Shown here: piece by piece, positions 55,736 through 58,895 of the stretch
Layout: the number at the start of each line of letters is the position of its first letter
How positions within the stretch are numbered: the stretch's first letter is position 1
NCBI GenBank assembly: GCA_028712895.1
Contig: JAQTPL010000005.1
Location: 1-64,000 of the forward strand
From: a bacterium
GTDB taxonomy: Bacteria; CAYTYR01; UBA6262
DNA: 64,000 bases
Direction of reading: 5' to 3'
Notes under the pieces: model-generated
Database searches by the model: none
Seen by the model: only the letters and a program-made list of their open reading frames with translations
What the model was told of the DNA's origin: nothing
Made by a program: the position numbers and the translations under genes

Positions 55736-56473
55736 ATGGACACTGAATTACAGCAAGTGATCAGGGATTTTAAGGCTTATCTGGAACAGGAGCAAAGAAA
55801 AGGATTGAAAGCCGTGCCGCTGTCTACCCGGATAATTAACCCTGGAAAAAAGACGACTGCCGCTGACCCAGCCAACAGTAAAACACTGGAACAATTGCAT
55901 CAACAATTCGCTAATTGCCAGAATTGCCCGTTAGGGAGTACCAGGAATAATTTTGTATTTGGCGAGGGGAATGCGCAGGCCCGATTGATGTTCATCGGGG
56001 AAGGGCCGGGATTCGATGAGGACCAGACCGGGCGGCCATTTATCGGCAAGGCTGGCCAGCTCCTCACCAAAGCAATAGAAACCACCATTAACCTGAAACG
56101 TGAAGAAGTCTATATTGGCAATATAGTAAAATGTCATCCGATGAAAGATCCAGGCCAACCTGCCTTGCGCGGCAATGACCGCCCGCCAACAGCGGAAGAA
56201 ATGGCTGCCTGCTTGCAGATAATTACCCGGCAGATAGAGATAATTAAACCGGATATAATCTGCCTTTTGGGCCGGACCGCCGCCCAGGCTATTCTCCGCT
56301 CCAATGCCGGCATTCATGAATTACGCAATAAATTCCATACCCTGAACTTTGCCGGTAAAGATATTGAGTTAATTGCTACCGTCCATCCTGCCAGTTGCCT
56401 GTATGATCCTGCCAATAAGAAATATGTCTGGGAAGATTTCAAGAAAATAAGAGATTTTTTAAAAAAGGTCTAA
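55736..56473 (+). CDS. Family 4-type uracil-DNA glycosylase
   Basis: FANCQNCPLG, GEGPGFDEDQTGRPFIGKAG, NIVKCHP, Fe-S cysteines. Confidence 0.92.
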   Translation: MDTELQQVIRDFKAYLEQEQRKGLKAVPLSTRIINPGKKTTAADPANSKTLEQLHQQFANCQNCPLGSTRNNFVFGEGNAQARLMFIGEGPGFDEDQTGRPFIGKAGQLLTKAIETTINLKREEVYIGNIVKCHPMKDPGQPALRGNDRPPTAEEMAACLQIITRQIEIIKPDIICLLGRTAAQAILRSNAGIHELRNKFHTLNFAGKDIELIATVHPASCLYDPANKKYVWEDFKKIRDFLKKV

Positions 56474-56476
56474 AGC

Positions 56477-58429
56477 ATGAATAATTTTGCCAAAGTAATA
56501 ATTCCCGGCATTGCCCTCGACCGGCTATTTGATTATGCGGTGCCGCCGGAATTAAGGGATAGCATCCAGGCCGGGCAGCTCGTTAAAGTCAATTTCGGCC
56601 ACCGGGACATCCAGGTTGTCGTCGCTGAATTATTGCCAAAAAGTAAAATTCCCAAAGCCAAAAATATTATCAGCATTATATCGACGCAACCGGCAGTGAG
56701 CGGGCCCATGTTAATACTTACCCGCTGGATAGCAGACCACTATTTTTGTTCCTGGGGTGAGGCTATAGAACCATGCTTGACAAGGCCGGTGAAAAAACAA
56801 GTTAAGACTAAGATTGCGGTGGCTAAAGAACCGGAACAGAAGAATATAGAATTACCGGGATTATTGTCCGGAGAACAGAACAGGATTCTGGAACAATTAA
56901 AAACCTTGTTGCGAGACCCGAATAATAAGCCGGTCTTGTTATGGGGCGGGTTGGCCAGCGAGCGGATCAGGATGTACCTGGAATTGGTTGAGGACTTATT
57001 AAAAAACCAGCAGCAGGTAATGATCATTGTCCCGCAAATAGAGAATTTGGCTTTATGGCAGCAGCATTTTGGATCGCGGTATCCTGGCCGGGTAGTTACT
57101 TTGCATAGCGGACTTTCAGATGGGGAAAAGTACCAGTCAGGGGAGAGAATAAAGGCCGGGGAAGCTGCCGTTATCCTGGGGACCAGGATGGCGTTATTCT
57201 ATCAATGTAAAAATCTTGGCCTTATGATCATGGAAGATGAGCAGGATACTGCCTACAAGTCAGACCAAAAACCAATGTATCATACCCGCGCGGTGGTCGG
57301 GAAAAAAGCCGAGTTGGAAAAAATACCCCTGATCTTATCGACATCCGCCCCTTCGGTGGAGACCTATCATAAAGCTATTACTGATGATTACAATTTCCTG
57401 AAAATCGGAAATCTTTTTGACCGGGAAGCAGTCAAAATACAGGTTCAGGAGCTACCTAAGCGCATCCAGAAAGACACTTTGGTTTATTTTAGCCAATCCT
57501 TTATCCAAGCCATTGAGTTGAGATTGAAAAAACAGGAGCACGCGGCTTTTTTTGTCAATATGCGCGGTTATTCCACGTATGTATATTGCCGCATGTGCAA
57601 GTTTGTAATGAAATGCCCTGATTGTGATGTGGCTTTAACCATGAGTGCGGAAAAGAACAAACTATATTGCCGTTACTGCTCGCATACCCAGACGCAAACC
57701 ACAGAATGCCCATCATGCCATACTCAGCATTTGAGAACGATCGGGATTGGAACAGAGACAGTGACCGCAGCACTGCAAGATATTTTCCCGCAGGCCAGGA
57801 TCAAACGTATTGACTCGCAGACATATGGGCAGAGCAAGAACCTGAAAGAAGTTGATATTATTGTCGGGACGCAACTCCTGAATAAATATGATTATTTTCC
57901 GAAAACTACGTTATTAGGAGTTTTGCTCATAGATCTATTGCTGAACCTGCCGGATTTCCGGGCAGCTGAGCATACTTTTCAAAACCTGATCGGATTGGTA
58001 CAGCGGCTGGATAGTTCCAAAGGAGACAGAGAAGTGATCATCCAGGCGGAGAATGTGGACCATTACCTAATAGAGTCAATAAGGAACCAGGATTGGGCCA
58101 GTTTTTACCGGCATGAATTGGAATTCCGCAAACAACTTAAATATCCGCCATTCGGGAGCCTGGTCCAGGTAGAGGTGAGGGGAGCTGATAAGGAAAAAGT
58201 TGAAAAAGCGGCGCTGGAACTGGCTGAGAAGTTCAGAAAATCAACGATTAAAGTATATGGCCCGGCGCCGTCATTCAGGGCCAAATTACGGGGGCAATAC
58301 CGCCAGCATATTATGTTGAAATCAGCCAGCCATAACGCCTTGATCAAGGTATTACAAAAAGTGAAACCGAATAAGCGCACCGCAGCTATCACTATTAGCA
58401 CTGATGTCGATCCAATGGACGTCCTTTAA
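56477..58429 (+). CDS. priA: PriA-family primosomal protein with degenerate helicase motifs
   Basis: Full-length PriA architecture and four CxxC zinc pairs; Walker A position reads GGLASERI. Confidence 0.93.
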   Translation: MNNFAKVIIPGIALDRLFDYAVPPELRDSIQAGQLVKVNFGHRDIQVVVAELLPKSKIPKAKNIISIISTQPAVSGPMLILTRWIADHYFCSWGEAIEPCLTRPVKKQVKTKIAVAKEPEQKNIELPGLLSGEQNRILEQLKTLLRDPNNKPVLLWGGLASERIRMYLELVEDLLKNQQQVMIIVPQIENLALWQQHFGSRYPGRVVTLHSGLSDGEKYQSGERIKAGEAAVILGTRMALFYQCKNLGLMIMEDEQDTAYKSDQKPMYHTRAVVGKKAELEKIPLILSTSAPSVETYHKAITDDYNFLKIGNLFDREAVKIQVQELPKRIQKDTLVYFSQSFIQAIELRLKKQEHAAFFVNMRGYSTYVYCRMCKFVMKCPDCDVALTMSAEKNKLYCRYCSHTQTQTTECPSCHTQHLRTIGIGTETVTAALQDIFPQARIKRIDSQTYGQSKNLKEVDIIVGTQLLNKYDYFPKTTLLGVLLIDLLLNLPDFRAAEHTFQNLIGLVQRLDSSKGDREVIIQAENVDHYLIESIRNQDWASFYRHELEFRKQLKYPPFGSLVQVEVRGADKEKVEKAALELAEKFRKSTIKVYGPAPSFRAKLRGQYRQHIMLKSASHNALIKVLQKVKPNKRTAAITISTDVDPMDVL

Positions 58430-58607: not shown

Positions 58608-58895
58608 ATGCACAAATATCTGCCTATATTGAAAGTAGCGGCGCGGACCTTCCTGGTCATCCTGTTGCTGAGTTGTATCGGCCAGTTTGTGTTTGACCGT
58701 GTTTATGGCCAGGGGGCGCCATTCGCATACGATAATAAGTTCTACTTCTTTAACCGGGCCAGATCATTATTGCCGATAGCTCCTGAATTGTACGCCAAAG
58801 CCAAAATACTTGAGGAATTGTTCGCGTCTTTGCTGTTCCTGGCTCTTATCCTGAACGTATTATATGAATACGAAACTCGCAAGATGAAATTATAG
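58608..58895 (+). CDS. Small membrane protein, hypothetical
   Basis: Two predicted TM segments, 95 aa. Confidence 0.7.
   Translation: MHKYLPILKVAARTFLVILLLSCIGQFVFDRVYGQGAPFAYDNKFYFFNRARSLLPIAPELYAKAKILEELFASLLFLALILNVLYEYETRKMKL

Follow-up and report, generated by a model that had tools for sequence, protein, structure and literature searches.

What can a PriA still do when the ATPase motifs of its helicase are decayed? PriA restarts DNA copying that has stalled, and a priA-like gene of this kind lies in the window that we analyzed, a whole stretch of 64,000 nucleotides (positions 1 to 64,000 of contig JAQTPL010000005.1, assembly GCA_028712895.1) from an uncultured bacterium of UBA6262, a candidate phylum. 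The reading that we prefer, at a probability of roughly 0.8 and by comparison of sequences and analogy with a characterized protein, is that the product is a PriA orthologue turned pseudohelicase, which would bind forks and recruit DnaB/DciA, with RecG most likely unwinding.

Family assignment and state of the ATPase motifs

The gene runs from an ATG start over 650 amino acids with zero internal stops (Table 1), the single uninterrupted frame that the original prediction had described. Its product scored 409.5 bits against the TIGR00595 (priA) profile (cut-off 230.35), which places it in the PriA family, and 500 bits against PRK05580 (PRK05580.1-3), and its residue alignment to the solved PriA chains (phmmer) had an E value of 1.5e-73. 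PriA chains were also the best match in a fold search with a weak AF2 model, built from four sequences (mean pLDDT 55.5) and of too low a quality to judge ATP-site geometry. The eight zinc cysteines (residues 371, 374, 380, 383, 398, 401, 411, and 414) are all present even though the Zn_ribbon_PriA profile (PF18319) scored 21.8 bits, slightly below its cut-off of 26. With PF17764 and PF18074 both over their cut-offs, the earlier statement that the CxxC pairs, the DNA-binding N-terminus, and the C-terminus are intact agrees with our analysis. These comparisons of sequence identify the protein as an orthologue of PriA. With canonical PriA (E. coli, K. pneumoniae; TIGR00595/PRK05580) it shares the domain order, the zinc domain, the 3′BD, the C-terminal domain, and most lobe residues, whereas it lacks the Walker A Lys, the Walker B Asp-Glu, the final Arg of motif VI, and a stretch of winged-helix size. 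The linker seems too short for a winged-helix domain of the E. coli PriA type; since several canonical relatives (660-680 aa) are equally short, the short linker is not tied to the loss of the motifs.

Table 1. Features of the priA locus, in positions of the window.
Feature	Position	Strand	Basis
Uracil-DNA glycosylase gene (presumed), family-4 type, directly upstream of priA	55736..56473	+	Sequence
ATPase-motif-less priA-like gene (putative pseudohelicase)	56477..58429	+	ORF, PriA profiles, domains, PriA-chain alignment
3′ DNA-binding domain (3′BD, PriA_3primeBD, PF17764; residues 7-100)	56477..56791	+	72.6 bits, cut-off 22.7
Linker, ~45 aa	56792..56926	+	Alignments; inference
Decayed Walker A (motif I) GGLASERI, aa 157-164, Arg at the Lys position	56945..56968	+	Alignment
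Decayed Walker B (motif II) EDEQ for DEEH, aa 253-256	57233..57244	+	Alignment
Altered motif III TSAPSVET for SATPSLES, aa 289-296	57341..57364	+	Alignment
Eight zinc cysteines, four CxxC pairs (CRMC, CPDC, CRYC, CPSC), complete	57587..57718	+	Sequence, alignment
Motif V GTQLLNKYDYFP, aa 464-475, partly kept (GTQ stays, Gly of KG lost)	57866..57901	+	Alignment
Decayed motif VI GLVQRLDS for QVAGRAGR, aa 506-513, last Arg lost	57992..58015	+	Alignment
PriA C-terminal domain (PriA_C, PF18074)	58148..58414	+	Domain match above cut-off

The motifs were placed against the solved PriA chains and 106 canonical PriA proteins, and these alignments confirmed the motif substitutions and positions first proposed from the letters alone. 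The original prediction had conceded that a better alignment might bring the motifs back; none among those made (solved chains, 106 canonical PriA) did so. The signature of an active SF2 PriA helicase (Walker A GxxGxGKT, DEEH, QxxGRxGR) is absent from the protein. We then defined as invariant the 95 columns that are at least 90% identical in the 106 canonical proteins, 24 within the ATPase motifs and 71 elsewhere; the UBA6262 family keeps 8/24 of the former as against 51/71 of the latter (Fisher p=0.0013). The window protein does retain part of motif Ia (PQI), GTR, NMRGY, the motif III AP, the motif V GTQ, and a single motif VI Arg. The claim that every recognisable motif had been lost is thus right for the catalytic residues and overstated in its “every”.

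Because the Gly (157) and Ser (161) of Walker A, Glu255, and GTQ are still present at the ATP site, residual nucleotide binding is possible. Conceivably, the remodelled site (Arg for Lys, EDEQ for DEEH) could even bind or slowly hydrolyze ATP, and the altered motifs are themselves conserved across the genus. We consider this improbable, since K230R alone abolishes the ATPase and helicase activity of E. coli PriA (PMC4504706), the D. radiodurans PriA, which likewise has the Walker A Lys->Arg change, has no measurable ATPase (PMC4504706), and the window protein also lacks the terminal Arg of motif VI.

Conservation in relatives and neighbouring genes

Our sample of the UBA6262 phylum comprised five genomes (G000, which carries the window, to G004). 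In G000-G003, four species at 54-82% identity, the decayed PriA is encoded in full open frames with the same altered motifs, with some variation in Walker B (DE to ED, but EE in G003) and in the last Arg of motif VI (to Ser or Thr). The recurrence of the same losses in three related genomes argues that they are not due to chance. The dN/dS between the window gene and that of G001 was 0.11 overall, 0.11 in lobe 1, and 0.10 in lobe 2 (C-terminal part); pairwise values were ~0.11 overall wherever dS was countable (it was saturated in pairs with G003), and the helicase lobes gave similar values, which is indicative that the lobes are kept despite a site that looks dead. Selection on a protein without its catalytic residues, as originally proposed, is therefore supported and is purifying. 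So many missing catalytic residues might also suggest a decaying pseudogene, or a frameshift or assembly damage that only looks open. The relatives refute this and we give it practically no weight: four species share the loss in full open frames, dN/dS is well under 1 in each domain with countable dS, and all eight zinc cysteines are kept.

The fifth genome, G004, belongs to the same class and another family. Its priA is split over two contig ends, in pieces that we infer to be one gene, and it retains an intact Walker A (GVGGSGKT) while DEEH is changed to TDEH and the stretch QLIDLVNT replaces QVAGRAGR in motif VI. This PriA reads as an intermediate stage of motif loss, and the class offers a natural series, with a partly eroded PriA in G004 and fully eroded ones in G000-G003. 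The same combination, with Walker A kept and Walker B and motif VI eroded, was also found in G042 and G188, and in a milder form in G098.

Directly upstream of priA lies a gene whose product we take to be a uracil-DNA glycosylase, and it holds this place in 5/5 genomes of the class (G001-G004 included). One could imagine from so constant a neighbour that the protein has left replication restart for another job, e.g., with the glycosylase. We regard this as highly improbable: canonical PriA has the same neighbourhood in G213 and G257, and the window protein is the sole PriA found in its genome and keeps the DNA-binding, zinc, and C-terminal domains. More generally, a uracil-DNA glycosylase gene lies near priA in several genomes with canonical PriA (loci noted: L026, L041, and L044). 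Downstream, between priA and def, there is a 95-aa ORF (58608-58895) predicted to be of membrane type.

Proposed role and partners in replication restart

The preferred reading, a PriA pseudohelicase, draws on three features that the window protein combines: PriA orthology, decayed ATPase motifs, and retained fork-binding parts. Such a protein would neither hydrolyze ATP nor unwind DNA. It would still recognise abandoned forks via the 3′BD and the C-terminal domain, and DnaB, together with its loader DciA, would be reloaded by way of the zinc domain, which would serve as a platform. A lagging arm that has to be opened first would be handled by an intact helicase, likeliest RecG. There is a precedent in the D. 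radiodurans PriA, which lacks ATPase and unwinding activity but still interacts with DnaB, ssDNA, and forks (Lopper et al., 2015, PMC4504706), and in E. coli, ATPase-dead priA alleles are viable and primosomes are assembled (PMC4504706). Decay of both Walker motifs, with Lys->Arg in Walker A, is common to the D. radiodurans and window proteins, and by this analogy we would expect the window PriA to interact with forks and DnaB while lacking ATPase activity. Unlike its D. radiodurans counterpart, it comes from another phylum, has an altered motif VI as well, and is known from its sequence. The PriA pseudohelicase is hence a kind already known from Deinococcus, and UBA6262 adds a candidate phylum to its range.

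The genome encodes DnaB, DciA, and RecG, the last with intact motifs. No second PriA, canonical or other, which the original prediction had suggested looking for, was found in it; as the assembly is still a draft, with a completeness of 94%, one could be missing. None was seen in three relatives either. A search with PF01695 brought out no DnaC/DnaI-like loader in the genome; the matches were short (up to 42.5 bits) and lay inside longer proteins of other kinds, and were rejected as loaders. In the same search G001 and G031 gave strong IstB-like matches, which are probably transposon ATPases.

RecG was present in 33/35 genomes with motif-less PriA versus 33/43 with canonical PriA (two-sided p=0.056, or 0.11 with families as the unit; kinship uncorrected), an association with motif loss that is suggestive only, and DciA had no association with it (p=1). 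In G188, recG is located just upstream of the motif-eroded priA (C81:41559-45940), and in G042 it is located ~1.6 kb upstream of such a gene on the same contig (C117:3002-8529). This proximity fits with RecG lending the unwinding step; the two cases are leads, not proof.

Origin of the motif loss and its recurrence

The original prediction also held that the loss might be independent of the one in Actinobacteria, whose PriA proteins it described as lacking helicase motifs; we found no usable literature on the actinobacterial case. Against the actinobacterial-type models (PRK14873, cut-off 812) the window protein scored at best 167.8 bits, as compared with 1183 and 1152 for the actinobacterial-type proteins L135 and L136, and matches to these models mark G113, G249, and G376 as carriers of this type. 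The actinobacterial-type proteins resemble the window PriA in lacking the ATPase motifs and keeping the eight zinc cysteines, but they keep ~40/71 of the non-motif invariants as against 51-52/71. Judged by these scores, the window PriA is not of the actinobacterial type.

In a fast tree of 147 proteins, computed without the motif columns, the window PriA stands beside the canonical PriA of G178 (SH-aLRT 96), and a careful mixture-model tree of 32 proteins, from which the longest branches were left out, groups its family with G004 and canonical PriA (support 95/90). The likelihood improved on that of the unconstrained quick tree when the family was constrained to join G004. An independent loss in the window family is likely, although not proven from one gene. 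The other possibility, compatible with a pseudohelicase, is that the loss was inherited, through common ancestry or gene transfer, with the actinobacterial-type lineage, the Deinococcus-like f21 group, or the G031/G042-type lineage. The f21 group is probably Deinococcota, to judge by its Walker A Arg, base composition, and genome size. The AU tests rejected none of these joins when forced (p 0.55 for the G031/G042 type, 0.55 for the actinobacterial type, 0.40 for f21). We nevertheless find a shared loss unlikely in view of the careful tree, the intact Walker A of the class-mate G004, the gap between the PRK05580 and PRK14873 scores (500 as against 168 bits, where actinobacterial-type proteins reach up to 1183), and the glycosylase-priA neighbourhood common to G004 and the canonical G213 and G257. 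A loss shared with D. radiodurans in particular is not favoured by the tree, and the AU test bearing on it rejects no join and involves a group that is only probably Deinococcota. Independence from the actinobacterial case is thus favoured by the profiles and the tree, while the AU tests are compatible with either origin.

The idea of a rare second case beside Actinobacteria finds no support, given the Deinococcus-Thermus precedent (PMC4504706) and the many motif-less lineages in our census. Taking one genome per family, we found motif-less PriA in 6/49 sampled families outside the UBA6262 phylum with a full PriA (G017, G023, G031, G040, G042, and G050). In a larger set that included low-scoring and other matches, 39/147 PriA proteins were motif-less, a share enriched by the choice of the sample. 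The tree of these 147 proteins requires at least 7 changes of motif state, a count lowered from 9 after inspection showed L155 and L076, motif-less by the strict pattern, to be canonical. The Walker A Lys is present in 108/108 canonical proteins; in 22/39 motif-less ones the column holds Arg, as in the inactive K230R mutant of E. coli PriA. All eight zinc cysteines are kept in 108/108 canonical and 37/39 motif-less proteins.

From this census we lean, by a small degree, towards the view that the helicase motor of PriA is evolutionarily dispensable, having been lost independently many times (~12% of the sampled families outside UBA6262), often by Lys->Arg and in some cases via forms that keep only Walker A, while the zinc platform was almost never lost. 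If so, what is conserved in PriA would be its recruiting role, and RecG or another helicase would supply the unwinding. The part of PriA that is indispensable then becomes testable as the zinc/DNA-binding platform rather than the motor. The published picture, of well conserved motifs with Deinococcus-Thermus as the exception, is moved towards one of recurrent loss. In the open-licence part of the literature we found no paper describing such recurrence, and its breadth across lineages is what goes beyond published work. Among the individual proteins, L085 (genome G069) is a PriA of 595 aa that lacks both the ATPase motifs and the entire zinc domain, and L091, from the 0.6 Mb genome G205, has half of the cysteines left.
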